A stretch of 64,000 bases of DNA from Tubulanus polymorphus (taxonomy: Eukaryota > Nemertea > Palaeonemertea > Tubulaniformes > Tubulanidae), in NCBI RefSeq assembly GCF_964204645.1, contig NC_134031.1:14152307-14216306 (forward strand). The letters are read 5' to 3'. The notes beneath the pieces were generated by a model. That model was given only the letters and a program-made list of their open reading frames with translations, did no database searches and was not told the DNA's origin. Made by a program: the position numbers and the translations under genes. This document shows positions 18,779-44,265 of this stretch, in pieces (position 1 is the stretch's first letter; the number at the start of each line of letters is the position of its first letter).

Positions 18779-20882
18779 GTGAAATCACCCTCTAATGATT
18801 TTTCTACACATAGCTCGCTGGATGAATCGGAAATTGAGCCTATGGAACGCTCAAATGAATCAGCAGTGCGAAACGATATAGAGTCGTTGAATGATATTTC
18901 ATCACTTTCGCCATATCGCCATTCCGACATATTGAGAACAAATCCACAATCAAGCGGCGAGACTAAAAAAGAATCCGAACGGGAATCTACACCTGAAATA
19001 ACAGTAGCACCGGAAGTAAGGACACCACCTCAATATGCGGAGCAACAAAGAACTGTAAAACCCCCATCGTAGGACAAAGTTATGCGAAACCAACAGGCGT
19101 ATGTCCGCCATGAAGAAAAAATAAACGGACCTAATCGGATGACAACAATTGACGAACATGACGTTGAACCAATCAATACAAAAAACATAGAATTTAAACG
19201 GAATCCACCACGGCATAAACGTGAACGTTATACCGACTTTTATCGTCCAACGGTCTTCCATCGCTTAGACAGTGGGAATATTAAATACTGCTACTGCCAG
19301 GAACCGAACGATGGGGATCCTATGGTGGAGTGCGATTATTGTTGCAAATGGTATCACTATCGATGTCTGTTTTCAGACATTGACACGCAAAATTTTACAG
19401 ATGAAACAGCCGTATTCTGCTGTTCCAGATGCACCTCTACTTTCATTCGTGGTTCTAGCAAACGGGGCATCGAGAACATAAAAAACACATGTTGGCTAAT
19501 ATCGGCAATACAGGCATTTTTGTCAACAAGTTATGCCGGATTTCTGCGGACAATGGATGTCGAGCAACCTGTGCAACGGGTAACTGATGTTGTTCAAAGG
19601 AAAATCCTTCGGATAAAAGATCAACTGTCATGCATTATACAAATGGTTTGTACTGATACGTTTGATGAACCGTATGTGGGAAGAGAATTTATGGACACCT
19701 TGATTGAAAGTGTTAATGAACTCCTTCCTGGAGTAACTAACGCTATCATGTTTGATTGTGACGATTTTGTACGCCAAATATTGACAAAACTGCTTGTGAT
19801 GTTCGATCGCAAGGAAAAACTTTGAAGAAGAACACAGAGACTGTCGATGCCCATGTCAACATTGTGAACCACTGAGTCAGCGTGAAACAGAAGTCAGATA
19901 TGTACAAAAGATAATTAATCTGCCAAAAACGCTGATCGTAAGTATGGCCCGTTGCAGGATTAACTATGAGGACGGATCACTTTTTAAGAACATGGACCCG
20001 ATGAAGCCGTCGTCGATATTAGATATGACATCATTCATGGGTGCTGACGCACCGCAGTATGCACCTCGGTGTTACTGGTTGTCCGCAGTTATTGTGCATC
20101 GAGGTTTCGCAGCAGATAGTGGTCATTATGTAACCTATCGATTCAACCGCGATGGTACCATAACTTTATTCGGTGACAGCGCGGTCAAAATTGTTCACCC
20201 ACAATTAGCGAATGTGGATATCACTATCAATGGACAAATGTTCATATATACAATAGATAACATCCACTGTGACGGGATACCAAAAACACAGGCCGAATAT
20301 TTGAAAGAAGGTAAACAAATGGAAAACCTATCTATTTCACCACGGAAGTGCCGGTCACCAAATTCTCCTGAAACGATTCATGAATACAAAAGTCCATCGT
20401 TCGAAGATAAAACGGTAAGTAGCGTAACGATGACAGACGATGACATTCCGAGTCACAGGACATTGGAGGCGCTTTCAAATACAATAGTAGAAATTGATGC
20501 ATATGAAGCTCCGAGACCCGAACCGGCACTATTTCAGTTAAAGGTTGACGAATGGAATGAACTCATAAAAAATGCAACTGTTATAACATCAAAGAAAAAG
20601 CCAGCTCAAAGACAAAGATATCTACCACCTAGTTGGTTAAACATTTTTTATGAGTATATAAAAGAAAGCAATCCACATTGTACCATACAATTCAAGGGTC
20701 ACCGAGTACGAGCAGCAAAATCAAGAAAAAGAAATGCTCCCTTATTTACAGCAACGGGTTATTGCAGCATTGGAAAGAACGAAGAATATGTGAGGGAGTG
20801 TCCTTGTTCTATAAAACTGGTGATGAATGTTCAATTAAATTACATAGTTACATACACAGGTACACGAGAAAGGTTGCTATAG
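18779..20882 (+). pseudogene. PHD finger plus USP-type deubiquitinase module of a MULE gene
   Basis: The frame 18,779-19,825 is interrupted only by one TAG at 19,070-19,072. Numbering from Met 19,082, residues 70-117 form a C4HC3 PHD finger (YCYCQEPNDGDP, MVECDYCCKWYHYRC, CCSRC). Residues 130-150 hold the USP Cys box ENIKNTCWLISAIQ, with the catalytic Cys at 19,490. A frameshift near 19,822, at an A5 run, leads to a Cys pair region (CRCPCQHC), then LPKTLIVSMARC. The USP His box follows: YWLSAVIVHRG and SGHYVTYRF (His codon 20,124), then FGDSAVKIV. All three catalytic positions are kept. From about 20,540 a GYCSI...CPCSIKL segment looks like the zinc/DNA-binding region that precedes MULE cores. 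Deubiquitinases remove ubiquitin, and PHD fingers read histone tails. Use in transposition is an inference. Confidence 0.75.
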
Positions 20883-20915
20883 CCGTAGATATTTCAGAGC
20901 AAATGAGGAGATGAG

Positions 20916-21710
20916 ATGAAAGCACAATTACTGGATGAAAAGCACCCCAGTAAATTACAAGATAGACATACCAGTCAACTTACAAAAACACAGCTAGCTT
21001 CCGGCAATTGGTCAGGTGCAACTGTATCCAGTGATGTTTATAGAAGTATACAACATGAAGGCAGAAGAGGACTTCAAATGAATGATGATGTGTGGAAGAG
21101 TCTTCAAAATTGAAGATGGACTCGATGATGAGGACTTACCAGGATATATACATCATATTGTAATAGATCCGGCCACCATACATCTCTATTCCCACGCAGG
21201 AATTAAAGCATATCACGACCTTGCAACAAACTTTCCCATATATTATGATTTAACGGGGTCAATTAAAAGGAAGCAAAAAGATGGACCAGATTACTACTAT
21301 CATGCATTAGTTATTCATAATCCAAACGTCAAACCAAGCACTCCTTTAGCAATAGCTGAGATGATAACCCGAAGCCAAAATGCACCAACAATTATATCAT
21401 TGTTGGCAAACATCCAGCACGCTGAAAAACGAATTTACGGGTACAAAAATACGATATCGCCATGCATTATTTCAGCTGATAGAAGCGCAACATTTTTGTT
21501 AGCCTGGTCGAAAATGATTAATTCTCAAGATGTTGCAGATCACCTGCAGAGAGCGTACCGAATAGTAACCGGTGAAGCTTCAAAAGATGATTTAGGAAAA
21601 ACCATATACCATATGGGATGTTGCCACCTTATGAAGGATGCTTAAGTAATGGTGAAAAAGTACTATGTAGCAAATTATCGACTCGGCATATAGATTTTCA
21701 GCTTACTGGC
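20916..21710 (+). pseudogene. MULE transposase core of the PHD-USP element
   Basis: Two frames cover it. The frame 20,916-21,113 gives the pre-core (GNWSGATVSSDVYRSIQHEG). The frame 21,082-21,645 gives the DDE core: LPGYIHHIVIDPATIHLYS, then FPIYYDLTGSI with the first Asp at 21,247. The second Asp lies in CIISADRSATF (21,478), and GCCHLMKD stands where MULEs have CxxH. A frameshift near 21,640 carries the reading on as SNGEKVLCSKLSTRH up to the piggyBac insertion. The third acidic residue should lie beyond. The C-terminal region resumes after the insertion at 24,330. It is inactive because of several frameshifts. Confidence 0.75.
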
Positions 21711-21722
21711 AAATGTCTCTAA

Positions 21723-24233
21723 CCCTGTGCGTACATATGATGCACCGGTGCATCACTAAATTTGGGGGTTCATAGGTCACATGAGAGTAACTAAAATATC
21801 CTCTTCATACCGTTGATTCATCTGAGAATCACTTGTAGTTCCTCTAGCTGTGCACAGATGGCAGCACCATACGACACTGTTCAGTTCTCACCGAACAAAG
21901 ATGGCAGCCTCCATGGAAGCTTTTGTTTCATGAAAATTGCTGTTCAATCAGACCCCAATATACCTACATAAAGGTAAGTAAGCCACTGAAACCAAGTTAT
22001 AATAAAAATATAACTACTATAGTATATATAGAATGACTTAAGAGTTATATATAAGCAAAAGTCACTTTTTAATAACTTGGATTATTTAACTGATCCACCA
22101 GTGCATCAAAGGTGTGTCGAGTGTCAGTGACACACAAGTCGGCGCCCACAAGTCTTGTCGAATTTTGCAGCGACTACTATGCAATTTTTTTTTACAGATG
22201 GAAAGAAAGAAAAGACTACAGGTGAATGATATCTTAGAAGCTGTACTGGCCTCAGACAGTGAATTTGAAGGCCTGTCAGATGAAGAGAATGATGAAGATG
22301 ATGCCTGGCCAGATGATCATGACGCTGTTTCTGTAGAATCTGATGATGATGATGAAACATGGAGTTCTTCTGACGATGAATTATTGTCTTCAAATGCGTC
22401 AAGTTCTAATATTCGCCAAAATATATGACTGTCGGTAAACAAAAAGAACATTTTAATTTTGAAGAACGCAGACCATTTGTGCCTCCTATATATACTGCGT
22501 TCAAACCAGTTCCAATAACTCCGCCACCAGATATAGAGATGACTCCCTATGAACGTTTCAAATCCTTAGTTACTGATGAAATGCTACAAAACATTGTTTC
22601 AGAAACCAACAAATACTCGGTTGAGAAAGATGGACAGTCTATGAAAATAACAGTCCATGAACTGGAGACATACATCGGTATCTATTTCTACATGGGATTG
22701 GTGAAAATGCCAGCAGTGACATCCTATTGGGAAGGTGGGACCAAGTATCCCAATATTTCTGATGAAATGGGGCGAAAATCGATTTACAAAGATTGCATCG
22801 AGGTTGCATTTTGTCGACAACAATAAAATAACCGACGATGAAAAGAATGATGATCATGTTTGGAAATAGAGACCTTGGATAAAAGCGTTACGCTCTAACT
22901 TTCGAGATATTTCTAGCGAAGAATATCAAAGCATTGATGAAATTATGGTTGCATTTAAGGGCCATAACCTTCTGCGACAATACATGCAGAAAAAACCGAA
23001 AAAGTGGCGATTTAAACTGTGGGGCCGCTGTGGTGTCTCTGGTATATGTCAGGATTTTGAAGTCTACCAAGGAAAAGGCACTGGCATTGATAATGAACTA
23101 GCTCCTGGCTGTGGTTTAGGGGGCAGTGTAGTCCTGCAGTTGTGCGCGGGTCTACCCCTAGGTCACCAGTACAAGATATTTAGCGATAATTATTTTACAA
23201 ATTTTGAAGTTGCTGTTCAAGTCAGAGAGCGGCGTATTGGACAGTTTCTAGGAACCATCCAGGCAAACAGAACACATAAAGCTCCATTAAAAACTGACAA
23301 GCAAATGGCGAAGCTTCCCTGCGGTTCAGTTAGTTCAGTTTATGACAAAGACTGACAGCTTGTGCTTGTGAGGTGGATGGACAATAAATGTGTCACACTG
23401 CTCTCAACATATGTAGGTGTCGAACCTACAGACACTGTGAATCGTTACGACAAGTCGACAAAAACCAAAATTGATGTGAAACATCCAGCCATTGTCCAAG
23501 TCTATAATGAAAACATGGGCGGATTGGACTTGCTTGATATGTTATGTACATTGTATAAATAGCTTAATCGAAGCAAACGGTGGTATCTTTACATATATTA
23601 CCACACCCTTACAATGGCTATGGTCAATTCATGGCTACTCTATCGGAGAGACTGCAGGCTACTAAATGTGAAAAAGACTATTCCACTGAAAGTGTTTCAA
23701 GCTGATGTTGCTGCAGCCCTCATAAAAGCTGGTAAAATCGCCCGTGTTGGACGGCCATCACTCGCAACTCTGAAGTCGCCACCTGCAAAAAGGAAGCGTG
23801 CAGTTCCAATACCAGTGAATGACGTACTCATTGGCCAGTGTATGATGAAAAGCGACTAAGATGCAGACATTGTACAAAGTATACGAACATTAAGTGCACA
23901 AAATGCCAAGTGGCTTTATGCCTTGTAAACACTAGGAATTGCTTTGTGGCATTCCATCAGAAATAAATTTCTATTACTGTAGATTATATTAGATATGATT
24001 TTTTGACTCATTTTAATTGAAAAAAAAACAAGCGAAGATAATTTTTAGTGGGTAAATTATTCAACCATAGTTACCAGTACATACCAATGATTCACCGGTG
24101 CATCAAATGTAAAAAGTAGGTCAACTGAGGTGATTTTTTAAAATTAAATTGTTTTTGGCATTCCCCTAGGATGTAAGTTTTCAAAGGTTATAATTTTTGC
24201 AACAGTAGAACTGGTGGTGGTATGCGTAGGGTT
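21723..24233 (+). mobile_element. piggyBac element inserted in the MULE gene
   Basis: The left end ccctgtgcgtac (21,723) and the right end gtatgcgtaggg (about 24,221-24,232) are imperfect TIRs. The right side borders TTAA (24,234-24,237), and the left side shows CTAA, a likely decayed TTAA. Subterminal palindromes gatgcaccggtgcatc (21,740) and gattcaccggtgcatc (about 24,090) lie inside each end, with a third version at about 22,090. The 2.5-kb size and the transposase inside fit piggyBac. It lies within the transposase frame of the MULE-type element, so it is the younger insertion. Confidence 0.8.
22198..23963 (+). pseudogene. piggyBac transposase
   Basis: The start is taken at Met 22,198 (MERKKRLQVNDILE) rather than 22,114. 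It is followed by an acidic N-terminus rich in Asp and Ser. A frameshift near 22,425 leads to the transposase body (TPYERFKSLVTDEML, GIYFYMGLVKMPA). After an in-frame stop near 22,867 come the catalytic blocks: SIDEIMVAFKGH (Asp 22,936), FSDNYFTNFE (Asp 23,185) and MGGLDLLDM (Asp 23,527). All are present, as is the basic C-terminal tail. A cysteine-rich finger near 23,850-23,960 (LRCRHCTKY, KCTKCQVALC, NCFVAFHQK) completes the family layout. At least two frameshifts and several in-frame stops inactivate it. Confidence 0.85.
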
Positions 24234-24329
24234 TTAACCTGAAATGTTTTGAAGATCTATACTACAGTATTTGTTACGTATTGATTTCACAAAAAAACTC
24301 ACCAAAAACTGCTGAGCACATGAATAGAC

Positions 24330-24725
24330 AGCAAGCTGCACCGGAAACATTGGGCACAGAGGAAGAAGATGTTATAAAAAGCACCTATGTTGAACCCGAG
24401 GTAAAAAATAACAATGGGGATGTCTAATCGTTTGACAGAAGAAGAATTCATTCATTTGAACAAAACTTCGTCATTTGCTAAAATGGGTAAGAAAATACTG
24501 GAGAGTATGCGAGCGGATATCTTGACAGAACGTGCAAACGAGTACATTGAGGAAAACCCTACAGTATCAGAAACATTAATGAAGAAGATACAAAGTCATT
24601 ACATTCCGACTATACCATTATGGTCTAACATGCTGCATGGGGACCTAAGACGACACTTCCCAAACGGAAGTTTGCAGCGTGAATTCGTTCGCCTCACCGT
24701 ACCGTACCTAAAACACAAGGATTGA
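24330..24725 (+). pseudogene. C-terminal part of the MULE transposase, beyond the piggyBac
   Basis: The segment opens with an acidic stretch (TLGTEEEDVIKSTYVEPE) and breaks near 24,420. It then runs as a 103-codon frame with SHYIPTIPLWSNMLHGDLRR, a pattern I associate with the region after the DDE core in this MULE subgroup (PT-PLW...GDL-RH). Its position directly after the piggyBac right border, on the same strand, supports one gene split by the insertion. An aataaa at 24,867 could be its polyadenylation signal. Confidence 0.55.
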
Positions 24726-24944
24726 TTGAAGAATTTCGGAAAGATGTCAAAGGTTTGATGACCAATTATATTTGCTGGTGACCGGATGTATTTGATTCTA
24801 AAGCCAAAGATTTCCATGTATCCAGGTGGATTGGTATCCAGGTTGTATTGTTCTGTCTTAAGACTCAATAAATTTCTTGTATCTTGTAGGTAAACGAGGT
24901 TGTTTTTCGAATCGCTATTTACGATTTCTTACTCTTCTTAGTAT

Positions 24945-24980
24945 GAACAAGAGGCCCATGGGCCTTGAAGCATTGGTAGA
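24945..24980 (+). mobile_element. Truncated Helentron-like repeat 5' end
   Basis: aacaagaggcccatgggcc is, from memory, the common 5' signature of non-autonomous Helentron-like repeats in molluscan genomes. Only about 35 bp are recognisable here, and no matching hairpin end follows nearby. Confidence 0.3.
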
Positions 24981-25552
24981 TTATACCGTGGTATTGAGTG
25001 GTTATAATGTTTTACATCTGCCGGCAAATCTTCTATGACGATGTTGATTGGGTGGACCACAGACTTAAAGGTCTTTTTGTCTAGTACGATTTTATTCCTG
25101 AAAATGAATTTATTTTCTGCCGAACGATTTAGCCTAGGCTATTTGTGCTGTTAAACCTCATTAATGCGATTCTGTTAAAAAGACGAAACTAGTTTATTCT
25201 GATGTTATCCATCATGTTCCAGCCAAGATATTTATATCAATAAAGATTTGGATACGAAAACCCATTCCTACGCATGAACTGTTAGGCCCCACTGAATAAT
25301 GAAAACATAAACAGAACGATTTTTCTGATTGCAATTGCAAGACCCTCTGATCTTGAGCTCCAAGCTCTGATGCATGTACGCATGCAAAACGTCGCAGAGA
25401 GCAATGCCGGCGTTGGTGTCACTGGGGCCGGCTGATGATTGTTTGCTTGGCTTTACGTACGTCGTTTGGATCTTGGTTTCCCAAGACTATTCCTATTGGA
25501 TTGTTCATTTAACCTCACGACGGTACGGCCTTTGAAGTGTTGCTCGCACACT

Positions 25553-25650
25553 GTTCGCAGCCAGCAGGACTCGAACCCACTCGTCACTCAGCATTGATAG
25601 TGGATTCAACAGCATCACGCCTTATCTCACTGAGCTACCGAGGCCGCTCG
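25553..25650 (-). repeat. tRNA-derived SINE head
   Basis: On the - strand it reads ggcctcggtagctcagtgag (A box) and later gtgggttcgagtcctgc (B box), about 60 nt apart. There is a long variable-arm-like segment between, and a T stem that pairs by eye. The acceptor stem does not close, so a SINE or tRNA pseudogene (Ser- or Leu-like length) is likelier than a working tRNA. The sequence below 25,553 down to about 25,330 may be the SINE body. Confidence 0.55.
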
Positions 25651-25654
25651 ACTT

Positions 25655-28457: not shown

Positions 28458-29005
28458 TGTAGTGTTCAATTGTGTAATTTGTAACAGTTAATTTTGCTCT
28501 AGCTAGTGGCGCCCTCATGCGGTATTTCTTTGTACTAAAAGTTAAGATGGTATCCATGTGATTGCAATTTTAAGACAGTTTTAGTTTTTACGTTTGTTTC
28601 TGCCAAATTTATGTTAGATCAATCCCAAAACGTCTGTAAGTACATAGCAGAATATCTTCTAAATGTGTATTAATATTCAGTAATCAGTAACTATAGTTTA
28701 ATGTGCTTTAAATCAGTCGCGAAAGTTTATTAAATTTAATTATTGAGTACGTGACTTCCGGTAAAGATTGAAGACATTTTTTTTTTTACTTTCGATATTA
28801 ATTTCCTATGTTGCAATATTCTTATAGTGTAATATTGTTTATTTTATTAGAAACCAACAACAACATATGTAAAGAACGACGACAAGATATGTCAAGAACA
28901 ACACAAGATTAAGTTGATTCAAGAATAAAAAGTCAAAGAGTTGCGTTTAAACCAAGAAGATTGTTGCGTTAAGTTTATTTGCAAGATTCAAGATTGGCAG
29001 TTACA
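28458..29005 (+). repeat. BEL 5' LTR
   Basis: 548 bp, starting tgtagtgttc and ending cagttaca. It differs from the 3' LTR at only about two positions (a t/g near 28,768 and a g/a near 28,879), which indicates recent insertion. Confidence 0.95.
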
Positions 29006-29027
29006 AAAGTTTAGACGGAGACTAAAG

Positions 29028-32000
29028 ATGACGGAAGAACTGAAATTGAAGAAAACTACAAGTAAGACAATACAGGAAGAAGATGCTGACTCCACGATTA
29101 AGTACGGTGACCTCACCCGTGACCTTGATGCATCAGACTCAGTAAGTCAGTGTTCAAGTACATCCTCGATACGTTTAAAGCTGTTAGAAGAAGAAGCTAC
29201 CAGACGTAGCCTAGAAACTAAGTTGCTGAAAGCCAAAGAACAGCAACAACTTCAGCGAGAAAAATTACGTCTCGAACTTAAACATAAAGAACAGCTCCTA
29301 GAGCTCGATGCTGCTGCGGCATTGCTACAAATCGAATCAGAACTGGAACAGTCGGCTGTAAGGCAGCATGTATATAACGAAGCAGATTGTGACAACGACG
29401 GTGCGCCGAGATCATCGAAACCAATTCTTAGTTCCAGTCAAACCGAAACAAAGGTGCCGCCACTATCGGCCGAAGCACGTGAGTGGTATCCGCAGAATGT
29501 TAACTCAAGAAGTGACATGAGTAATATGATGTCTTGCGTAGAACAAATGTTTTCGCACCAAGAGCAGAGTAATCTTGAATTAACTCTTCCGAAACCAGAG
29601 ATGCCCACTTTCGATGGCAATCCGATCGATTATTACCCGTTCATCTCTGCATATGAAAATCTTATTGCATCGAAAACTCAAAATGCAAGTACACGTTTAT
29701 ATATGTTACAACAGTATACGAAGGGTGAAGCCAACGAAGTAGTGAAAGCATTCTTAACCAATGAACCAAATGTTGGTCTCGCCAATGCGCTCGACGCCTT
29801 AAAAAGGCATTATGGCCAGAATTACCGGATCGCAACTGCGTATATCGACAAGGTTACGAATGGCCCTCCAATACGTTCCGAAGACGGAGCAAGTCTCCAG
29901 AAGCTATCTGTGATATTAAATTCTTGTGCGAATGTCCTAAGTCAAATTGGTTACGTGAGTAAAATAGAGAATCCAGACTTTATGCGTCGTTTGATCTACA
30001 GACTGCCTTACGACATGCGAAAGAGATGGCGTACGAAAGCAGATTACATCACGAACCTTGAACGAGAAATAACAATATCAGACATCGCTAGTTTTATTGA
30101 ACATGAAGCACGAGTTCATACTCATCCGATATTCGGGGACATTAATGACTCGAAAGATAAATCGAAACAGAATCATCCGATAAAAAAGAAAACATTTACT
30201 ACGAACGCTGAAGAAATATACTCTAAGGACTCACGAAAGAACTGTGTTTATTGTAGTGAAAATCACTGGCTTGATCAGTGTAAAATATTTTTAGACAAAT
30301 CAGTTGAAGATCGTCGTAAGTTTGCTCGTGAAAAGGCGCTATGCTATAATTGTATGAAGATGAAGCACAGAGCTAGGACATGTCGTAGTCAAGCATCGTG
30401 TCGTACATGTGGCAAACGCCATCATAGTCTGCTGCATACAGAACAGCCTCCACCCCTGAAGAATGCTTTTGTAAGAAATCCAGTTCCTGGAACAGTAAAG
30501 CTACCTATAGTACCAGTTTTGCTGAAAGCTAATGATTGTCAGCTAACAACGTACGCGCTACTCGACAGCGGCTCAACAGTTTCATTCTGTACCGAGAGCT
30601 TGATAGATCGTCTTAAAATTCCTGCTGAGTATAAACGCTATCAGCTGAGCACTTTAGGAAGGGTTGAGACTGTTGAGTGTCGGGAAATATCAATCAATGT
30701 CTATAGTTTGGATGGGTGCAGTTCTCTTCAGCTGCGGAACATGCTATCTACACCGTCCTTACCAATCTCGAAGAATGACATGGTATGTCAAGACGAAGTC
30801 AACAAGTGGCCCCACCTGGATGGCTTTACAGTCTCAAACATCGACTCTCGTGTGGAGCTGCTGATAGGTAACGACAATCCAGCTGCATTGGAACCAATAG
30901 AAGAACGGAAACCGGCTAACAGCAACGGTCCATTTGCTGTACGTACACAGTTCGGCTGGACAGTATATGGTACAGCCCAGCCATATGAAGCGATCAACAA
31001 AGGTTCAGTTAATCTAGTCAAAGGCAGCGATGATGAACTTAATCAGAGATTCCGTGAATTCTGCAATCGTGAATTCAGCGACGCATTTACTGATGCTTCA
31101 GCTATGTCAGTGGATGACAAGAAAGCTCTCTCAGCGATCGAGAGTACAGCTGTTATGAGAGAAAATCATTACGAGGTAGGGTTACCATGGAAATACCCTC
31201 CTTCAGAATTGGTCAACAATAGAGTTATGGCCGAACACAGATTGAATCTACTGAAGGGTCGTCTCCTAAAAAATGAAGGATTACAAGCTAAGTATACAAA
31301 ATATATTGATCGTCTGTTGGAGCTCGGATTCGCCGAACAAGTCCCAGTTGAAGAAGTTGTATCCCCATATGTCTGGTACTTGCCTCACCACCCAGTATGG
31401 CATCCGCGGAAACCAGACAAGCTTAGAGTGGTATTCGACTGTTCAGCTAAATATCAGGGTAGATCACTAAACGACATGCTGTATCAGGGACCAGATCTCA
31501 CTAATTCCTTGATTGGTGTATTAAGTCGCTTCCGACAGGAACATGTCGCATTCATTGGAGACATAGAGAGCATGTTTCACCAGGTGAATGTTGAAGAACG
31601 AGATCGAAACGCGTTACGCTTCCTGTGGTGGCCAGACCACGATATTGAACAGCCACCTATTGACCACCGTATGAAGGTTCACATCTTCGGAGCAGCCTCA
31701 TCACCAAGTGTTTGTAACTATGCTCTACATAGGACAGCAGACGACAACAGAGCGGACTTCGCCGCAGATATAGTTGAAACGGTACATCGAAACTTTTACG
31801 TGGACGATTGTCTCAGGTCTGTGGAATCGTCTCAAGCTGCCACAACAATGAATAATCAGTTAAGCTGTCTATTGTCAAGAGGTGGATTTCGACTGACTAA
31901 GTTTGCTTCAAATTCGAGAGAAGTTGTCGAACATATTCCACCAGAAGAACGAGCACCCCCTCTGCGCGAATTGGGTGATCATGATCTGCCTGGTGACCGC

Positions 32001-34430
32001 GTCCTCGGCGTCTGGTGGGACATGGAAACTGATACGCTACGTTTTAAAGTGAATATTAAGCCACAACCTGTTACTCGACGTGGGATGTTGTCTGTAGTCA
32101 GTGCTATTTACGATCCGCTCGGACTTGCTTCGCCATTACTGCTACCAGCGAAGGTCATATCTCAACACCTGTGTAAGTCCGGACTAGGTTGGGATGACAA
32201 AGTACCCGCGAATTATGAACGTGAGTGGAGTAATTGGCTGCAAGACCTACCCCTGCTGGAAGAGTTCTCAGTCCCAAGATGTATTAGACCTGCTAATTTT
32301 GGTCGCGCGACTTCAACACAGCTTCATCATTTTGCAGACGCATCTGAGAAAGGATTCGGTGCAGTTTCATACGTACGTCTTATTAATGAAAATGGGCACA
32401 TACATTCTGCATTCTTAGCGTCAAGGTCGAGATTGGCCCCACTCAAGGTGATGTCAATACCACGTCTCGAGCTGTCTGCAGCAGTATTAGCAGTGAAACT
32501 AGATCGTATGCTTCGCGAAGAACTCGACCTGGATATCGACAACTCCACATTCTGGTCCGACAGCCAGGCTGTCTTGAAGTACATCAGCAATACGAGTAGT
32601 CGTTTCAAGGTATTCGTCGCAAACAGGTTATCAATTATCCAAGAAGGTTCAAATCCAGAGCAATGGAGATACATACCGGGGGTTTTAAACCCAGCCGATG
32701 AAGTCTCTCGAGGACTCACTGCTCAGCAATTCCTGCAAAATGACAGATGGGTTGCTGGGCCAGAGTTTCTACGAAAACAAGAAAGCGAATGGCCTCGACA
32801 AGAATTCGGAAATCACGATGTATCAATAGAAGATACAGAAGTTAAAAAGACATTTGTTTCAAAGGACTTGGAAATCAACTCATCGTCAACCAGCGTGCTG
32901 CTAAACATAGCAGATAGATCTTCAACGTGGCATAAGGCCAAAATTGTAGCGGCGTTGGTTATGCGTTTTATAGCAAGACTGAAACAATCTGTCTCTAAAC
33001 GGAAGGGACTAAATACTGCAGCTCAAGGTACCGCATACAAACATATAACTGTACCCGAATTGAGAGCTGCCGAAAGCGCCATTGTTGAAGCTGTACAGCG
33101 TAAAGTTTACAGTAAAGAAATGGAAAGACTGGAGCAGAACAGAACGACAGATAGACGTAAATATCGCAAATTCGTTAAGAAGACTAGTGTACTTCGGCGT
33201 CTAAACCCCATAGTGGTAAATGGACAGCTGAGAGTTGGTGGACGTCTGTCTTACTCAACAGTGAACGAGGACCAGAAGCATCCTTTAATCCTTCCACCAA
33301 ATGAACATGTAACTAAGCTTATTATCCGCCATTACCATCGTTATAGGGCTGGACATTCCGGTCGAAACCACGCTCTGTCACTTGTACGCGAGAAGTATTG
33401 GATAGTCCACGGTATGTCAGCAGTATATCGTATTCTGAGGGACTGCATTGACTGCAAAAAGAGACAAGGTCTTCCAGGTCAACAAATGATGGCGGACTTA
33501 CCACCTGAAAGGCTAGTCGCTGATAAACCGCCTTTTTCGAACGTCGGAATTGATTATTTTGGTCCGTATTTGGTAAAGATCGGCAGAAGTCAAGTAAAGC
33601 GATATGGCTGTATTTTTACCTGTATGTCATCGCGAGCAGTCCACTTGGAAATCGCTAATTCTATGGACACCTCTGCGTTCATAAATGCTCTGAGACGTTT
33701 CATAGCCAGGAGGGGCAACCCGGAGTGTATAAGAAGTGATAATGGAGACTTTACTGGAGCTCAACGAGAATTACGTGATTCAATAGCTGGGTGGAACCAG
33801 GAGAAAATCGAAGGATTCATGCTCCAGCGCGAAATTACGTGGGAATTTAATCCGCCAAGTGGATCGCACTTCGGTGGCGTATGGGAGCGTTGCATAAGAA
33901 CAGTTCGAAAGGTGCTTAATGCGTTGTTAAGCCAACAAGTGTTAAACGACGAGAATTTGTCCACTCTTATGTGCGAAGTGGAATCTGCAATTAACTCGCG
34001 TCCACTTACCGCGATTTCTGGAGATGTCAGTGACTTACAGGCCCTAACGCCTAATCATATCTTGCTCTTGCGCGCCGGAGGCACCATGCCGCCAGGTGTC
34101 TTTAAACCTACTGATATGTATATAAAGAGAAAGTGGCGTCAAGTACAGTATCTTGCCAATACGTTTTGGCGACATTGGGTTAAAGAGTATTTGCCTGTGT
34201 TACAGGAGCGCCAGCGATGGCAAAAGCCGAGCGTCAATTTTAGCGTTGGTGACATTGTTTTAGTGATGGACCACACACTCCCTAGGTGTTGTTGGCCGCT
34301 AGGCCGAGTTATTAGCGTACATCCGGGAAAGGACAATAAAGTCAGGGTTGTTACCTTGAAGACAAGGTCGCAAAATTCTCTTGTACGCCCAGTTGATAAA
34401 CTTGTGCACCTCGAGTGTGTACATAAGTAA
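29028..34430 (+). CDS. BEL/Pao Gag-Pol polyprotein
   Basis: The open frame begins at 28,941 inside the LTR. I prefer Met 29,028, just outside it, giving 1,800 residues. Numbering from 28,941, a coiled-coil N-terminus is followed by the Gag-type domain near 220-400 (PTFDGNPIDYYPFISAYENL) and zinc knuckles at 434-500 (CVYCSENHWLDQC, CYNCMKMKHRARTC). The aspartic protease is at 540 (LLDSGSTVSFCT). Reverse transcriptase spans 830-960 (RVVFDCSAKYQG, YVDD at 953) and RNase H starts at 1,128 (HFADASEKGFG). The integrase has an HHCC finger from 1,463, an Asp near 1,536, SDNG near 1,597 and the Glu of GGVWERC near 1,644. A C-terminal domain with WRQVQYLANTFWRHW and VRPVDKLVHLE closes it. No stop or frameshift interrupts it. 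No envelope-like frame follows. Confidence 0.95.
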   Translation: MTEELKLKKTTSKTIQEEDADSTIKYGDLTRDLDASDSVSQCSSTSSIRLKLLEEEATRRSLETKLLKAKEQQQLQREKLRLELKHKEQLLELDAAAALLQIESELEQSAVRQHVYNEADCDNDGAPRSSKPILSSSQTETKVPPLSAEAREWYPQNVNSRSDMSNMMSCVEQMFSHQEQSNLELTLPKPEMPTFDGNPIDYYPFISAYENLIASKTQNASTRLYMLQQYTKGEANEVVKAFLTNEPNVGLANALDALKRHYGQNYRIATAYIDKVTNGPPIRSEDGASLQKLSVILNSCANVLSQIGYVSKIENPDFMRRLIYRLPYDMRKRWRTKADYITNLEREITISDIASFIEHEARVHTHPIFGDINDSKDKSKQNHPIKKKTFTTNAEEIYSKDSRKNCVYCSENHWLDQCKIFLDKSVEDRRKFAREKALCYNCMKMKHRARTCRSQASCRTCGKRHHSLLHTEQPPPLKNAFVRNPVPGTVKLPIVPVLLKANDCQLTTYALLDSGSTVSFCTESLIDRLKIPAEYKRYQLSTLGRVETVECREISINVYSLDGCSSLQLRNMLSTPSLPISKNDMVCQDEVNKWPHLDGFTVSNIDSRVELLIGNDNPAALEPIEERKPANSNGPFAVRTQFGWTVYGTAQPYEAINKGSVNLVKGSDDELNQRFREFCNREFSDAFTDASAMSVDDKKALSAIESTAVMRENHYEVGLPWKYPPSELVNNRVMAEHRLNLLKGRLLKNEGLQAKYTKYIDRLLELGFAEQVPVEEVVSPYVWYLPHHPVWHPRKPDKLRVVFDCSAKYQGRSLNDMLYQGPDLTNSLIGVLSRFRQEHVAFIGDIESMFHQVNVEERDRNALRFLWWPDHDIEQPPIDHRMKVHIFGAASSPSVCNYALHRTADDNRADFAADIVETVHRNFYVDDCLRSVESSQAATTMNNQLSCLLSRGGFRLTKFASNSREVVEHIPPEERAPPLRELGDHDLPGDRVLGVWWDMETDTLRFKVNIKPQPVTRRGMLSVVSAIYDPLGLASPLLLPAKVISQHLCKSGLGWDDKVPANYEREWSNWLQDLPLLEEFSVPRCIRPANFGRATSTQLHHFADASEKGFGAVSYVRLINENGHIHSAFLASRSRLAPLKVMSIPRLELSAAVLAVKLDRMLREELDLDIDNSTFWSDSQAVLKYISNTSSRFKVFVANRLSIIQEGSNPEQWRYIPGVLNPADEVSRGLTAQQFLQNDRWVAGPEFLRKQESEWPRQEFGNHDVSIEDTEVKKTFVSKDLEINSSSTSVLLNIADRSSTWHKAKIVAALVMRFIARLKQSVSKRKGLNTAAQGTAYKHITVPELRAAESAIVEAVQRKVYSKEMERLEQNRTTDRRKYRKFVKKTSVLRRLNPIVVNGQLRVGGRLSYSTVNEDQKHPLILPPNEHVTKLIIRHYHRYRAGHSGRNHALSLVREKYWIVHGMSAVYRILRDCIDCKKRQGLPGQQMMADLPPERLVADKPPFSNVGIDYFGPYLVKIGRSQVKRYGCIFTCMSSRAVHLEIANSMDTSAFINALRRFIARRGNPECIRSDNGDFTGAQRELRDSIAGWNQEKIEGFMLQREITWEFNPPSGSHFGGVWERCIRTVRKVLNALLSQQVLNDENLSTLMCEVESAINSRPLTAISGDVSDLQALTPNHILLLRAGGTMPPGVFKPTDMYIKRKWRQVQYLANTFWRHWVKEYLPVLQERQRWQKPSVNFSVGDIVLVMDHTLPRCCWPLGRVISVHPGKDNKVRVVTLKTRSQNSLVRPVDKLVHLECVHK

Positions 34431-35194: not shown

Positions 35195-35242
35195 GTCCAG
35201 CTTTTGTTTTCAACCATAAATTCCCAAATCAATCCAGCTAAG

Positions 35243-37620: not shown

Positions 37621-38354
37621 TTAATAGAATGAAAAACAGCACCCTGAGGGTCCGTTAGTTAATATTAATATGATGGCAATCCCGAAAATATACTTCCTTC
37701 CGACTCAGTCTGACCAATTATATTTAGCCTCTCAAACATTTATGTTGCGTTGTTCGTGATTGGATAAGGTTTAAAAAGGCTAGAAACAACTTATTCTTTG
37801 TTTCTCAATATTGATGTGTTAGTTACTACATAGATGGCGATCGCTACAACCATTTGAAGTGACTCCCACAATTATTTTGCCTTGCCTTCCTTTAGTAAAT
37901 AGAGCAGTGGTATTTTATCATTGCACGTGGGAAGCTGAATCTTTTCTAGGTTAAAGTAAACTTGTATACAAACAATTTCACGGTGTACTACCAGATTCCT
38001 GCGTGGCGTTTGGGAGTAATTATTTTTCAAAGATCATGCCCCGTGTACACTAGATAGTCTCATTCAGAGCGTTATAAATTATACTTACAGCAGGTATGTA
38101 AACCTATAAAAACATTCTTTTGGGTGAAGATATCACTGTTGAATGTCTAAGGGCGAATTAAATCATCATCGTGACGATGTAGAAAACGATAAGGCCCTAT
38201 TGACCTTTAAAAAAATTATTACAGCAAGCCTATCTCAGTTTCAAATTTTCTTGTTTTCAATGAACCCCAACGAAATCATTTATTTTTCTTTGTCTTCCAG
38301 TAAGATGAGCTTCAAGGCTAAGTGTTCAGCGAATGACAGACACCAGGAGTGCCA
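37621..38354. other. Probable DIRS 5' leader, no clear gene
   Basis: A 78-codon + frame (38,143-38,379) shows no motif and overlaps the start of the local duplication. Nothing else is recognised. Confidence 0.3.
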
Positions 38355-38597
38355 GAAGAAGGAGCAAATCACACATTAATATTGAAAGTTTTCAATATCA
38401 ATCAAAGAAAGCAATTTAAATTAATCATATGCTTTTATTACTATATTTCTATCAGCCTTATATCAATAATTTGCACATTTTAAATATGATTGAAATTAAT
38501 AAATTGGTACCTTTTTCTTAAAAACCATTTCCCATAAGATTGTGAAAGCTGAAATGAACTTTTTTAATTGTATGTATAACTAACTACATGCTGTTAG
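38355..38597. repeat. Local duplication, copy A (uninterrupted)
   Basis: Near-identical to 40,953-41,679 except that copy B carries a 462-bp insertion and a small internal tandem repeat. Copy A keeps the empty site gcaatttaaattaatcat. Confidence 0.9.
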
Positions 38598-38600
38598 TAT

Positions 38601-38814
38601 AATAAGATAAAATCCCACTAGGCTATTTACAGATTAAAAGAATTTAAAAACCAGACACACCTGACGATGATCTCTAGGGTGAGATCGAAACGTTGTGTCT
38701 TTTATATATTTTTGATTGAATAAATAAATTCTGGTTTTTAAATTCTTTTAATCTGTAAATAGTGGGATTTTATCTTATTATCCGTTCACCACCTTTGAGT
38801 GTGGTTATCGTTCT
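38601..38814. mobile_element. Foldback insertion with 13-bp target duplication
   Basis: Flanked by exact copies of atgctgttagtat (38,588-38,600 and 38,815-38,827). Inside, about 60-nt inverted arms (aagataaaatcccacta...ttaaaaaccaga and its complement) enclose cctgacgatgatctc...gagatcgaaacgttgtg and an aataaa-like run. It ends with ccgttcaccacctttgagtg. A variable-length target duplication plus the CTGANGA...GAAAC pattern suggests a non-autonomous Penelope-like retroelement, by recall of that family's ends. Confidence 0.5.
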
Positions 38815-38829
38815 ATGCTGTTAGTATGT

Positions 38830-39425
38830 TGAATGAAATGCAAAAATAACACTGAAATTTTAAAAAAAAGAATAATTGATGATCTTTTGATTGACTGGAA
38901 TGTTTTGTTTTAATTACCTTTTTTAAATTAATTTTTGTCTTCTAATCTACTAAATAAACTTTGAATTGTGATGAATACTTAGGTTCTTGGTCTCCATATC
39001 TATATACCGGTATTTATGTTTTCAGCAGGCTAAATATTCTTACAATACACCCGAAATAATACATTTGCATTACCAGTTATTTCAGCTAGAAATAGCCCCC
39101 ATATATTTGGATCCGTCTTGTGCTGCCACCACATGGCTAGTCAACACTGATTCATTCAAGATCAATTCTTAGACAGTGTTTTATTTAATAAAACTGTGAT
39201 TAATGAGATAAGACAGTTTCTACAGATTGATAAGAGTATATTCTACCTGAAATGACAAATTATAAAATCAAAAATATCGATATTATGCACAAGTAAACTT
39301 TGTGGCAGAAAGCAGCATTAATCTCCAGGAAGTCACCTATATTTACGTGAGTCACGTAAATTTACGGGATACCCGTAGAAATACATATGCAAGTCGACCT
39401 GGTAAAGTGACAAATAACCGATAAA
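38830..39425. other. No recognisable gene
   Basis: AT-rich. A small inverted repeat, tttacgtgagtcacgtaaa, lies near 39,341-39,360. I found no coding domain. Confidence 0.4.
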
Positions 39426-39649
39426 AACGAGAGCTCCTCTCGAACACGGCTATACGGACCGGAAGTATGCAACACAGTGACGTATAGGAAGTGACGACAA
39501 TCTCATGGAATTACGTGCAGGTAAATGCAGGAGAATTCAACTAAGCCACACTTAAACTGCTTACTGGAGTTCTAATAGATGATGCTGATGCTGGTACTCT
39601 GTCATCGACATCAGGTCATGTTCACAGTTATAAAATAATGTTAACGTTA

Positions 39650-40110
39650 TTTTCATAGACGGACGACGGGCGCCGAAGGACGTCCCTTTGATAAACGCGT
39701 ATATGTGGATTCTAGAAAGTGTCTTTTTAACCGAATCTGACTTACTGACAAAGCCAGAAAAAAATGACGTCACAGTAGGTCCGGTATGAAGTTCATGGGG
39801 AAATCGCAAGTAGAATTACGTTACGCTAAAATCCGGCAGCGAAGTAACTAAAATCCCGCAACTTTTGGATCGGGTGATTACAGAATGTATTTATTTCGTG
39901 AAATTTCGACCAAGATTGAATCGTTGAATCGTTTAACAATGAACCGCCTGATCGAACGAGTTCAAATAGCTGATATTCCCTTAGCAACCGGAGCGAATTC
40001 ATAATAACAAACGCGCCCGGTCCGGCATCGCGCACGGGTTCGAATCCCGGAGAATTACGCTCTAGCGCGCACGTACAGCAGTCAACCCCAGCCGCAGCAC
40101 TGAAATATTT
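39650..40110 (+). repeat. Dispersed SINE-like repeat, diverged copy
   Basis: Shares with 11,150-11,980 the stretches gtccctttgataaacgcgta, aaaatgacgtca, aaaatccggcag and tttaacaatgaacc. It ends with a clear pol III B box, gggttcgaatcccggagaat (40,036-40,055). An A-box-like tagcaaccggagcg lies about 60 nt upstream. This supports a tRNA-related SINE or composite repeat. Confidence 0.5.
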
Positions 40111-40950
40111 AATTATCTTATCAAATTAAATTACTCTAAAACAGCGATGAGAGTTAAACTGAGTGCGTTAAGACTCGTACAATTTGCTTAAAATTTCACG
40201 GCAGCGCCGATCGGTCTCGCTCGAGCAGCAGCCACCACATCGCGGTCGGCAACAACATTTAGTCTCTGCCCCTTCTTTCACCAAATAAGGAATTCAGTAC
40301 CGCTAGCCACATGCACTGCTTATTTACTTGAGCCGTAGATACCCGGTACTCGTTATTCCCGGAGGATTAGAAACAAATAAATATTTTTCGTAAGAGAAAT
40401 CAATTTTTGTATTGACATTTGAATTTTTCTGCTGATAATTAATCAATTCGATTCTTTCTGGCAGAAAATAATTTTCCGATTGATGCGTTTCAACCTGTCT
40501 TCCATTTTTCTCCGTAATTAAACAATTCGTCGTAATCTTCTTGTCCTTTTGCTTTCGAATGGTGCTAATCTCTTAATTAACAACCAGGTCAAAATTCTTC
40601 AATCTTGCAAAAACCAGTCTCAGTCTGAGTCAGTTTCACTTCGAAATGTCGGTTACATAGCGGTTTTTCAAAGTGGTTTAAACCATCGAATAATTCCTGC
40701 ACTAATCTAAATCGAAATAGTTTTTAGCAGTGATAAACAGTGCCACGGGTAAGCCAAATACCAAAAATAATAAATAATTCAGTTGGGAAATTGGGTCAAG
40801 TCTTTTTCTGGCAGAATATTGAATTTCATTATCTTAAAAGCCCAAATTTTCTATAACCAGAAATGAATCAAACCTTACAGTTGCAGTTTCATCGTCTTTC
40901 CCCATCCCCCAACCCTCTGGCATTATTTTTCATTTTTCCAAGTTTTATCT
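40111..40950. other. No recognisable gene
   Basis: Low-complexity and AT-rich, with no long frame and no array. Confidence 0.4.
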
Positions 40951-40952
40951 AC

Positions 40953-41679
40953 GAAGAAGGAGCAAATCACACATTAATATTGAAAGTTTTCAATATCAAT
41001 CAAAGAAAGCAATTTAAAATATAGCTGCAAAGCAGCGATAACGGGTTTTCTGGATGCATGTGATCGAAAGGAAAAATTAATTACCGGGTATTCGATGGAA
41101 AAAATAAAATGAGATGATTTGGATATTATCGGAGCAATCCTCTTTTTGGTCTCGGAGCCCTCCTTTATTAACTTACTAAATGACGTCACAAACTGTTATT
41201 TCGCCGGTGCTTGTTGTCTAACAATTCAATTCAATTCTTTATTTACAGTAACCTAATAAGTAATTTTAAGTTTCAAATAGGATGGAAAGTACATTCAGAC
41301 AATCTGTTGGTTCAGAGAGACCGTTATTACAGTATCAATTTATACATTTTGTTTCGAAGCTGTCAGTTGCCGAATCTGAATGAAGATGAATTTTATTTGA
41401 CGAAATCGGCGGAAAATATATAATAATAATAATAATCAACAGAATTTCAAGAGGGTTTTCGACGAAAGTCAGAAAACCCTAATTAATCATATGCTTTTAT
41501 TACTATATTTCTATCAGCCTTATATCAATAATTTGCACATTTTAAATATGATTGAAATTAATAAATTGGTACCTTTTTCTTAAGAACCATTTCCCATAAG
41601 ATTGTGAAAGCTGAAATGAACTTTTTTAACTGTATGTATAACAGTATGTTTAACTGTATGTATAACTAACTACATGCTG
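40953..41679. repeat. Local duplication, copy B (with insertion)
   Basis: Duplicate of 38,355-38,597, split at gcaatttaaa by the 462-bp element 41,019-41,480. Confidence 0.9.
41019..41480 (+). mobile_element. Hairpin-ended element, family B, short copy
   Basis: Starts atatagctgcaaagcagcg, a small hairpin. It ends with an (AAT)n run, aatttcaagagggttttc and a hairpin of agggttttc against gaaaaccct. Comparison with the uninterrupted copy A shows a clean insertion with at most an AA duplication. The same ends bound the 3.6-kb element at 47,417-51,028. Hairpin termini with almost no target duplication fit non-autonomous Helentron-like elements. That class call is an inference. Confidence 0.65.
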
Positions 41680-41992
41680 ACGAATTGATATGCTTCGGGC
41701 CCACAATTTCAATATGAAATAGAATTGATCAAAGTCGGTGGTTCTAAACACCGACCAAAACCGTCCAATACCGCCTGAAACCGTCCAATACCGACCAAAA
41801 GCCGTCCAACACCGACCAAAAGTAAAATTAGTACCGACCAAAATTGTAACAACCACCAAAAGTAGAATATGATACCGACCAAAACTAAGACGAGTAAAAT
41901 GATACCCGACATCGTCTGATACCGACCAAAAGAATTTTGAACTAATCGCACAGATAATTCTCAAAACAAAGCTACGCGTGTCACTTCGATCA

Positions 41993-42450
41993 CTGAGCGA
42001 CCACAGTTCAATTTTGAATAGGTACAACTTTGTTAAATCTTTCACTACTTGAAAACTAATTCATGATCATTGGAAGGAATCACTCACTCACTCACTCCGT
42101 AATTGGCGTATCAAAGCAAACACAACTGAGACAAGTAATTTTTTTTTCAATTATTCATATCATAATAACTTGCTTTGATCATTATGTACTGAACGACCAC
42201 AGTTCAATTTTCAATAGGTAATTACAACTTTAGTCAGTTGCCTAAAGTAATTTAATATCTTTCACTTATTGAAAACTAATTTATGATCATTAGAAGGAGA
42301 CACTCACTTACTCCGTAATTGGCGTATCAAAGCAAACGCAACTGAGACTAATTTTTGTTTCAATTTCCACAATAACTTGCTTTGATCAAATTATTTACTG
42401 AACGACCACAGTTCAATTTTGAATAGGTAATTACAACTTTAGTTGCCTAC
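41993..42450. repeat. Tandem repeat of about 200 bp inside the OTU-MULE
   Basis: The start ctgaacgaccacagttcaat recurs at 41,993, 42,189 and 42,398, with spacing 196 and 209. Each unit continues through gaaaactaattcatgatcat and ccgtaattggcgtatcaaag. The third unit is partial. Confidence 0.85.
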
Positions 42451-42559
42451 TGTTAGTAATTACACTTTCCGTAATACTAAGTCACAATTTTTAGACAGGG
42501 CCATCATTCATCGACAAAATTACGTAAAAGCAATGGCATCGAGAAAAATTCAACCCCGT

Positions 42560-43643
42560 CGTCGTTAGGTCCGTTGGCCTTGTAGTGTTTGCAGCCTGGA
42601 ATGTAAAAATCATTCGATATATTGTCCCTTCTGTGAAATGTGGAGCCATTCAAGCTGCGAGAAAATATCAGCAAATATATAACTGCCTGGAAATTATAGC
42701 TGCAACTCGTGCCGCCACGAAGACGATGGTTCATTATCTTATGGCCACGCACTAAAACGATTGGAAGAGTCTGCGATGAAAGGAATAAAAGGTCTAAAGG
42801 ATGAAGCAAAAATGCTTACGTTACTTTTCCCTGACCAAGAGTCGAAAATGCAATTATCCGTAGTTAAACGAGTCAGAACTTCAAGTCGATGGGTACAGCA
42901 AACACCTGCTAGATATGATCGGACCATCGAATAAGATTCCAATTCGAGATCGAGGAAATGGAAATTGTCTATTTAATTCAGTTTCCGTCGCACTTTCAGG
43001 AACAGAAGAATTGGCGACGAAACTGAGAGTACGAACTTTTATGGAAATGGTATTGAATTCAACATTCTATAAGAACCATGGTAAATATGCTGACTTCCTA
43101 AAGTGTTCTCCTGAATTCGACACAGCATGTCTTGAAGCTGCCAAGAACCACTCATATTCTTCGATATTTACAGTTCAGGCATTGGCAACCGTTTTACAAC
43201 GGCCAATAATGTCCGTGTACCCAGCAGTCAACGGAATTTTTGATCATTGCGCTAGAATACTTAATTGCAATTTTAATCCAAGAGACAAAGGTATCGCCAA
43301 GAAAAGAAAACGACAAAATCAACAAGAAATCTATTTAATGTGGACTAAGTCGACTACAGATGAAAGGCCAAGAACAGATGAAACTTGGTTACCAAACCAT
43401 TTCGTTCCACTATTGGAAAAAGAAAAGGCGATGAAGGAACGAAAGATAGGGCCACCACCCGAGCAGAAACGAGTTGAACATAGTAAGAAAAGGAATGTCC
43501 ATTTTACTCCAACCAAAAGAGAAAGTGAAATCGACGAAATGGCCGAAAAGCGGAGCCGAAATATCAGTCCATCAGGTATTATGTCATCGACATTTGGAAG
43601 AAAACGTCCGGAGACACCTTCAACACAAGGTCGGGGCGAATGA
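42560..43643 (+). pseudogene. PHD-like finger plus OTU protease of a MULE gene
   Basis: In one + frame (42,581-42,912) there is a PHD-like C4HC3 arrangement: PCSVCSLEC, YCPFCEMWSHSSC and YSCNSCRHED, broken by one TAA near 42,680. A linker follows (LKDEAKMLTLLFPDQESK). After a frameshift the 242-codon frame 42,915-43,643 is an OTU-type cysteine protease. It has DRGNGNCLFNSVSVALSG with Asp12 and catalytic Cys18, an internal helix region, and NHFVPLL with His162 (codon 43,398). A Lys/Arg-rich tail follows. OTU proteases cleave ubiquitin chains. Together with the transposase fragment that follows, this parallels the PHD-USP-MULE gene at 19 kb. Confidence 0.7.
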
Positions 43644-44265
43644 TAAAATAAAACACAATGTGATTAAATCTATATTTGGAAAAAACGGTATTTTAGATAG
43701 CGAAAGTGAATTTGATTTCGAGAACATGGTAATGAATATAAGAGAGAAGAACACGCGTGTAGTTCCAAATTTTCTATCTTATTTTGAGAAACTCGTTCCA
43801 AAACTTAAAGAGTATGTATTTAAACCAAAATTAAGAAACCATTGGATTCCTACGAATTGGACAAATAACAATTGCGAGTCATTGAATCAGGTTATTAAGA
43901 TGGCGATAAACTGGAAAATTCAGAAAGTGCCCGACTTAATTACGAAGTTGCACGAGATCGTACGACTTCAGTATATTGACATGAGGCGAGCTTTACACGG
44001 CCAAGGAAATTACCAACTCGCCCCGAAATTGGGAAATTTTGCAGTCAGCCATGCAGTATGGGCAACAAAAACTAAAGATGAAAAAACAAAACATTTTGAA
44101 AAATTCATGAAATATAAAACACCACGCAAAGTTAACAACGTAATCACCTCAACAGATGGTACTCTATGCATCCCAAAAACGGCTACAACTGCGAAGAAGC
44201 CCGGGCAGAGAAAGCGAACCAAAAGTGAACGAACGACACCTGCTCGAAGAAAATTAGATATGTAA
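43575..44265 (+). pseudogene. MULE transposase C-terminal half (OTU element)
   Basis: The reading is in the frame 43,474-44,265. Only the part from about 43,575 is homologous: VLCHRHLEENVRRHLQHKVG with the CxxH of MULEs (Cys 43,582, His 43,591), then WIPTNWTNNNCESLNQVI with the last acidic residue (Glu 43,875). GNYQLAPKLGNFAVS and a basic tail follow. The first two catalytic Asp residues and the N-terminal core are missing. An internal deletion has joined the OTU tail directly to the CxxH block, out of frame. It is non-autonomous in this state. Confidence 0.75.

Follow-up and report, generated by a model that had tools for sequence, protein, structure and literature searches.

PHD finger and deubiquitinase domains as likely native parts of two DNA transposon families with decayed copies in the nemertean Tubulanus polymorphus

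Introduction

The window analysed here, a 64,000-nucleotide stretch of the Tubulanus polymorphus genome (NC_134031.1, positions 14,152,307 to 14,216,306), contains two decayed genes, elements A and B, in which a PHD finger and a ubiquitin protease domain stand ahead of a transposase-like core. This raises the question of whether such modules are native to the transposase genes or were brought together by the insertion of unrelated elements. Contig C7 of the 268-Mb genome contains the window, and all loci (L0xx) and contigs (C1-C12) named below are taken from that genome. Domains were called by six-frame reading and Pfam, and "cut-off" refers to the Pfam cut-off throughout. We consider it likely that A and B each represent a dead member of a dispersed family of DNA transposons, and that in both families a PHD finger and a deubiquitinase domain are native to the transposase gene. 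This confidence applies to the anatomy and transposon origin of both elements and not to functional roles. The predicted deubiquitinase domain is a USP in A and an OTU in B, and the A gene is additionally predicted to end with a ULP1-type protease.

Element A and its intact relatives

The modules occur in one open frame at two loci of the A family and, for a family related to B, at locus L047, and they recur in divergent copies. When the PHD-USP piece of A was used as a genome query, 20 matches were returned, including two loci, on C2 (L033) and C4, with an open frame of 1758 codons. In the C2 frame Pfam identifies a PHD at residues 323-370 (PF00628, E 7.8e-6), a UCH/USP at 381-690 (PF00443, E 1.6e-20) and a Peptidase_C48/ULP1 at 1577-1740 (PF02902, E 1.1e-12), and at both loci the order is PHD, USP, transposase-like core and C-terminal ULP1. 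The region separating the USP from the ULP1 is conserved and contains two candidate Asp blocks, a CxxH-like block and a candidate Glu block. Over 5274 bases the C2 and C4 frames show 12 differences, eight of them synonymous. As the frame starts directly behind a splice-acceptor-like TTTGTAG (L033 2977/2978), and an open stretch at L033 1-118 runs in phase up to a GTAAGT donor, an upstream coding exon at 1-118 is likely and the A protein may be longer than its frame. Residues 1-260, ahead of the PHD, hold four TYAD repeats and two PPxY motifs, and the intron-like stretch contains a repeat of ~1.1 kb (L033 1745-2820) with many partial copies genome-wide at 72-86% identity.

The window copy of A is dead (Table 1). 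Its frame is broken by a TAG at 19070 and by a ~140-base deletion with a change of frame inside the USP, and its core is split by a piggyBac copy (about 21724-24234) with transposase matches at 22.4-23.4 kb. The PHD and split USP are found within 19.07-20.88 kb. Nothing aligns to the intact copies after 24828, so ULP1 is absent from the window. The ratio of nonsynonymous to synonymous substitution rates between A and this dead copy (0.63, 0.64 and 0.24 in three pieces) is uninformative on function. A preliminary description of the window had placed A at 18.5-24.9 kb as a PHD-USP-MULE (Mutator-like element) gene. The PHD, the USP and the transposase-like core that follows them are borne out; the alignable start, near 14244, lies beyond that range, the module list lacked the C-terminal ULP1/C48 of the full protein, and the label MULE is too firm for the core.

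Elsewhere in the genome, the core plus ULP1 retrieves 14 matches at about seven loci. PHD-USP and core occur together at four loci, namely C2, C4, the window and C9 (L036), the last with the same module order as A at 37-47% identity in a divergent, broken copy. ULP1 is present at C2, C4 and C9 and partially at C6:16.58 Mb. PHD-USP pieces without a core partner lie at C3:16.55 Mb and at three places on C8; at three of these four loci (L035, L037 and L038) no core was found over 10 kb each. Weaker PHD-USP matches occur on C6 and C11, and the core matches at C1:18.8 Mb, C6:11.67 Mb and C6:16.58 Mb are known by position only.

Outside this genome, the A core retrieves a single relative, P0050, among the best 8000 protein-database candidates scored. 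This 1679-residue ENA protein has a PHD (E 5.3e-4, below cut-off), a core 28% identical to that of A, in which the CxxH-like block reads CASH where A has GCCH, and a C-terminal, truncated USP-like stretch with the Cys box present and the His box absent. Pfam lists no USP for P0050 and the best solved-structure match, USP5, is non-significant (E 0.47); compared with the A USP the stretch scores E 2e-5. A USP is thus predicted to accompany this core in another source, at the opposite end of the protein. Residues 300-1758 of A as a protein-database query gave 5528 candidates, none at E 0.001, and among viral contigs 10 pattern matches included no relative.

Element B and its FLYWCH-bearing relatives

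The OTU piece of B as a genome query returned 28 matches. L039 and L040 share flanks and represent one insertion with an 8-bp target-site duplication (TSD), and L041 and L042 are further B copies. In L042 a single uninterrupted frame contains both an OTU (E 1.6e-7) and a PHD (E 0.011, below cut-off), L039 holds OTU in one frame and Transposase_mut (PF00872, E 1.5e-6) in another, and at L044 OTU and MULE lie in separate frames. Pfam finds no match in the window B core frame alone; through the Transposase_mut of L039, 98% identical to the window piece, B is assigned to the MULE superfamily. The window copy is dead, with a TAA in the PHD, the front of the core deleted (junction about 43570), a TTAA-flanked insert and a truncated 3' terminal inverted repeat (TIR). 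Of the PHD-OTU-MULE order proposed for 42.6-44.3 kb, the OTU is recovered by Pfam, the PHD by tblastn and alignment, and the core as its back part with the Glu block. On C8, near 2.73-2.77, 4.10 and 4.31-4.35 Mb, duplicated blocks contain both of the B copies with common flanks (L039, L040) together with A-type PHD-USP fragments.

L047 carries a single frame of 833 codons in the order PHD-OTU-FLYWCH-MULE, with Pfam matches to MULE (PF10551, E 2.7e-12) and FLYWCH (E 1.5e-7). TIRs of 74-83 bp enclose the frame, and there is a probable 9-bp TSD, matching at 8/9 positions by eye; no exact TSD was found by script. With this by-eye reading of the TSD, L047 has all three traits of FLYWCH-MULE/Phantom-like elements, namely FLYWCH, TIRs and TSD. 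The PHD-linker-OTU stretch of L047 aligns with that of L042 over 272 residues (35% identity, E 8e-44), whereas the core of L047 and that of the B lineage are only distantly alike (hhalign probability 42), so two MULE lineages appear to share the PHD-OTU module.

As queries, L047 gave 59 matches in the genome and 49 proteins in the protein database, among them P0001, which shares its architecture (46% identity over 96%). A strict PHD pattern is found in 12 of these proteins, a partial one in two and an OTU pattern in one (P0001); the N-truncated P0021 aligns to the OTU as well, beyond the pattern count. As many of the protein models seem cut at the N-terminus, these counts are lower bounds. In a midpoint-rooted tree of 50 sequences P0001 and L047 pair with support 0.998, P0021 stands apart, such that the smallest clade containing all three comprises 40 sequences (support 0.866), and the PHD-bearing proteins are scattered. 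This placement fits a scenario in which the PHD would be old in FLYWCH-MULEs and the OTU gained at least twice or often lost.

As the region has nested transposons, unrelated elements that happened to insert side by side could in principle have joined the modules, one of the events that the preliminary description named as refuting it. In relatives at other loci, however, these modules share a single frame and keep their order, which makes such an origin exceedingly improbable, and chance joining is contradicted by these uninterrupted frames. The identical module order in uninterrupted relatives points to an association beyond chance and supports the assignment of the PHD and deubiquitinase domains to the transposase genes themselves. 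Of what that description would have counted as support in intact copies, the modules were found in one frame in both A and L047, and outer TIRs at L047 only, none having been found for A.

Mobility and affiliation of element A

The window copy of A is dispersed, its likeness to the 10-kb C2 locus stopping at 14244 and at 24828. Copies on C5 and C1 fuse sequence near the start of the frame to sequence behind a minisatellite (C5 read, C1 by position) and appear to be internal-deletion derivatives of A that share its tail; as their 220-base flanks are identical, they may stem from one event. This minisatellite, a 101-bp array, stands directly behind the A frame and at C2 and C4 only.

Together, the PHD in the transposase gene and the minisatellite behind the frame suggest that Rehavkus-like is a better label for A than MULE. 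Rehavkus is described as a MULE relative with one open reading frame (ORF), a PHD finger, a minisatellite, a 9-bp TSD and TIRs of 26-400 bp (PMC6446971), and a beetle Rehavkus of 9.5 kb has 164-bp repeats in its inverted ends (PMC10218199). A resembles these elements in its length, in the PHD of the transposase gene (L033) and in an array placed behind the ORF (C2 and C4), as in Rehavkus ahead of a 3' TIR, which in A was not reached. It differs in that no TIR or 9-bp TSD was found and that USP and ULP1 go unmentioned for Rehavkus in the available portions of those accounts, the comparison being one of descriptions only.

Several observations weigh against the reading of A and B given above. 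The A core has no Pfam transposase match, and hhalign comparisons give it a probability of 6.3 against FLYWCH-MULEs, where the first Asp block falls in register, and of 0.5 against the B lineage. No TIR of A was found within the 10-kb loci or with a 361-base tail query, and no TSD, the element ends lying beyond the searched stretch; the ~650 bases past the array also contain no TIR, and likeness to the C5 derivative continues there. An inverted minisatellite was searched for on the 5' side and none was found. With neither TIR nor TSD found, the mobility of A is something we infer. The similarity between C2 and C4 reaches at least about 5 kb upstream and past the array downstream; of four 120-base pairs sampled upstream, the three at up to 5 kb overlap (offsets 40, -12 and 97) and the 10-kb pair does not. 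This shared sequence on both sides means that the pair may be one segmental duplication. L036 has a stop in its PHD, and several A-type loci carry only part of the modules. By BLASTP the USP of A is no closer to that of P0050 (6.6e-5) than to a host-type USP of the same genome (5.4e-5), the phmmer values being 4.4e-7 for P0050 versus 5.7e-6 and 4.2e-5 for host-type USPs, and a single common acquisition of the two is unsupported. The B OTU has an Asn three residues before its Cys, the usual residue there being Asp, and at L047 the PHD (E 1e-4) falls just below and the OTU (E 0.0016) below the cut-off.

Some of these points would also suit a host gene of transposon origin, (recently) domesticated and spread by segmental duplication instead of transposition. 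Such a gene would be consistent with the 14 core matches at only about seven loci, with the likeness of C2 and C4 running past the gene on both sides, with eight synonymous changes among the 12 between the intact frames and with the lack of a detected TIR or TSD. Against it stand the dispersed window copy, unaligned to the 10-kb L033 locus beyond 14244 and 24828, the internal-deletion derivatives with the same tail, the minisatellite as described for Rehavkus and the candidate D, D and E blocks of the core, and we consider domestication rather improbable. We favour a mobile origin for A.

PHD types and protease families

Among solved structures the PHD of A is nearest to PHF23, Spp1 and PHF13, with TAF3 and BPTF lower down, whereas that of L047 is nearest to Pygopus (E 1.3e-10), as is that of P0036 (1.6e-5), and that of L042 matches MLL1 PHD3 and Set3 weakly. 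The PHF23/Spp1/PHF13/TAF3 and Pygopus PHD families read methylated H3K4. Aligned with PHF13, the PHD of A keeps an aromatic residue, a Met and a Trp, and that of L047 keeps a Trp, positions that we take to be putative methyl-lysine cage residues. Two kinds of PHD suggest that the pairing was probably put together more than once. Indeed, as A and B differ in PHD type, in protease family and in core, the pairing of reader and deubiquitinase probably arose twice, as had been proposed from the window.

The USP of A has its Cys, His and Asp boxes (NTCWL, SGHYV and LFDDS) and among solved structures comes closest to USP18 and other USPs; the ULP1 has its His, Asp, Gln and Cys boxes and is nearest to SENP3, SENP5 and SENP2. 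No significant solved relative was found for the L047 OTU. Structure models of the window OTU and of half of the A core were of low confidence and unusable (predicted local distance difference test scores of 39.9 and 38.7). The proteases had initially been described as having unrelated folds, which is too strong because USP and OTU are separate families within the papain-like fold (PMC9741609).

Relation to known systems

Transposase-linked proteases and PHD fingers are already published. Ginger1 transposases carry OTU, ULP1 and PHD, hydra and lancelet have Mutator elements with ULP1, and a Trichomonas protein combines transposase_11 with peptidase C19 (USP) (PMC2836005). A figure legend in the same paper deals with Ginger1 and Mutator transposases and their ULP1 and PHD domains, so the presence of both domains in one Mutator transposase may already be known. 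In the portions of this work available, Ginger1 resembles A and B in joining a transposase to OTU or ULP1, with a PHD as well in one family, but differs in its Gypsy-integrase-type core and the absence of USP. The Trichomonas protein, like A, joins a transposase to a USP-type domain, but this transposase domain is of the IS5/IS4 type and PHD and ULP1 go unmentioned. Phantom/FLYWCH-MULEs (PMC3169594, PMC6446971) share with our elements FLYWCH and a MULE core, TIRs and a TSD of 8-10 bp, and B has foldback-like ends; a PHD and OTU ahead of the core go unmentioned in the available parts of those accounts. Helitrons with OTU and VTD deubiquitinases likewise use more than one deubiquitinase class, sometimes two per element, with protection from degradation proposed, but they are rolling-circle transposons and involve another deubiquitinase class (PMC9741609). 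In RAG1/RAG2 a DDE-type recombinase is guided by the H3K4me3-reading PHD of RAG2, but there the PHD is on a separate protein and no deubiquitinase is present in the account available (PMC8355894).

Our literature search, over sources available in part, found no PHD+USP+ULP1 transposase and no PHD+OTU MULE; Repbase, the original Phantom paper and Yuan and Wessler 2011 may hold one. The words OTU and ubiquitin are absent from the main text of PMC6446971 and from a 2026 survey of arthropod MULEs (PMC13359780), the latter also lacking PHD. The view that this was not a described system thus stands for the PHD+USP+ULP1 combination in the literature available and falls for transposase-linked OTU, ULP1 and PHD and the one USP case (PMC2836005).

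Proposed function

We propose a model in which the PHD would dock the transposase on H3K4-methylated open chromatin and direct integration towards promoters, much as RAG is guided by the PHD of RAG2 (PMC8355894), while the core would cut and paste the element. The proteases would free the transposase complex of ubiquitin (and SUMO), allowing it to escape degradation and silencing, or alternatively would alter nearby chromatin or repair factors; roles of this kind have been outlined before (PMC2836005) and suggested for Helitrons (PMC9741609). Self-protection of the transposase could plausibly be their main role, a view we hold tentatively. Deubiquitination of nearby chromatin, for example of H2B, would be an unlikely main role, and tuning of DNA repair after transposition would be an equally unlikely one. 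PPxY motifs can recruit NEDD4-type ubiquitin ligases, and a ligase so recruited would give the A USP something to oppose. A possible but doubtful extension is that A represents a transposon lineage with a one-protein kit for editing chromatin and its modifiers, in which an H3K4me-type reader would find promoters while a USP and a ULP1 round the core would take off ubiquitin and SUMO, respectively, and that a second lineage independently joined a reader to an OTU using a Pygopus-like PHD.

The proteases might instead cut a long transposase into pieces in the manner of viral polyproteins. The length of the A frame, at least 1758 codons, would allow this, and viral deubiquitinases often process polyproteins too (PMC9741609), but the domains have their matches among proteases of ubiquitin and SUMO, and a repeated cleavage site was neither seen nor searched for. 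We regard both this explanation and cleavage of the transposase itself as the main protease role as quite improbable. There is a similarly slim chance that neither the PHD nor the protease domains have a function in transposition, all being passengers. The OTU is missing from many MULE relatives of L047 (the pattern occurs in one of 49, and P0021 has it by alignment), but catalytic boxes are kept between A and L036 across 37-47% identity and the modules recur in P0050 and P0001.

If the native-module reading of A and B is correct, transposases have repeatedly recruited chromatin readers and ubiquitin/SUMO proteases, once with two protease families in one protein. The role of the ubiquitin pathway in transposition, which was proposed earlier (PMC2836005), would become testable, and natural fusions of histone reader and transposase would be on offer.

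Feature coordinates and other mobile elements

Table 1. Positions of elements A and B and their parts in the window.
Feature	Position	Strand	Evidence
Element A, remains	14244..24828	+	blastn of intact locus L033 against window, 86-95% identity
Element A, aligned pieces	14244-15203, 16062-17229, 18475-18767, 18769-19822, 19819-21724, 24235-24828	+	blastn with L033
PHD of A	19289..19432	+	PF00628, E 2.1e-5, above cut-off
USP of A, Cys half	19463..19792	+	PF00443, E 0.0056, below cut-off; Cys box aligned
USP of A, His half, in other frame after ~140-base deletion	19872..20249	+	PF00443, E 5e-13, above cut-off
Transposase-like core of A, front (two candidate Asp blocks, CxxH-like block)	21082..21642	+	tblastn with intact frame; motifs
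Core of A, back (candidate Glu block)	24235..24828	+	alignment with intact relatives, tblastn, motifs
piggyBac copy inserted in A core	21724..24234	+	PF13843, E 2.4e-14 and 1.4e-19; CTAA/TTAA flanks at junctions
Element B, 3' end truncated	41736..45703	+	alignment with L039, L040, L041, L042
5' TIR of B, built of short subrepeats	41736..41822	+	alignment with sister copies
3' TIR of B, truncated	45625..45703	-	alignment with sister copies
PHD of B, TAA at 42680	42575..42718	+	tblastn with L047 and alignment, not Pfam
OTU of B, Cys and His boxes	42951..43415	+	PF02338, E 6.9e-8 over first part, above cut-off; boxes aligned
MULE core of B, back (NNNCES Glu block), front deleted	43569..44265	+	98% identity to L039
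Insert in B, piggyBac-type non-autonomous element, TTAA flanks, CCCTTTAAC ends	44302..44894		alignment, junctions

Further mobile-element sequences are found in the window and beyond. Pieces of a Mutator-like transposase (PF20700) lie at 2240-2941 and 7907-8671, and an unbroken BEL/Pao-like frame with Peptidase_A17, DUF5641 and integrase occupies 28929-34430. On the minus strand adjacent long frames fill 51740-54546, the one at 51740-53104 giving no convincing Pfam match when scanned. Elsewhere in the genome, at C7:11.76 Mb (L048 5281-8250), a frame of 990 codons has a C-terminal OTU (E 1.4e-4, just below cut-off) behind a long N-terminal part without assignment. Finally, OTU matches on C1, C2, C6, C7 and C12 (L045, L046 and L028-L032) include five near-identical OTU-bearing frames of up to 744 codons, one copy being split, in which zinc-finger-like Cys/His motifs come after the OTU and the C-terminal part is like no Pfam family; these frames appear to belong to some other OTU-bearing mobile element.

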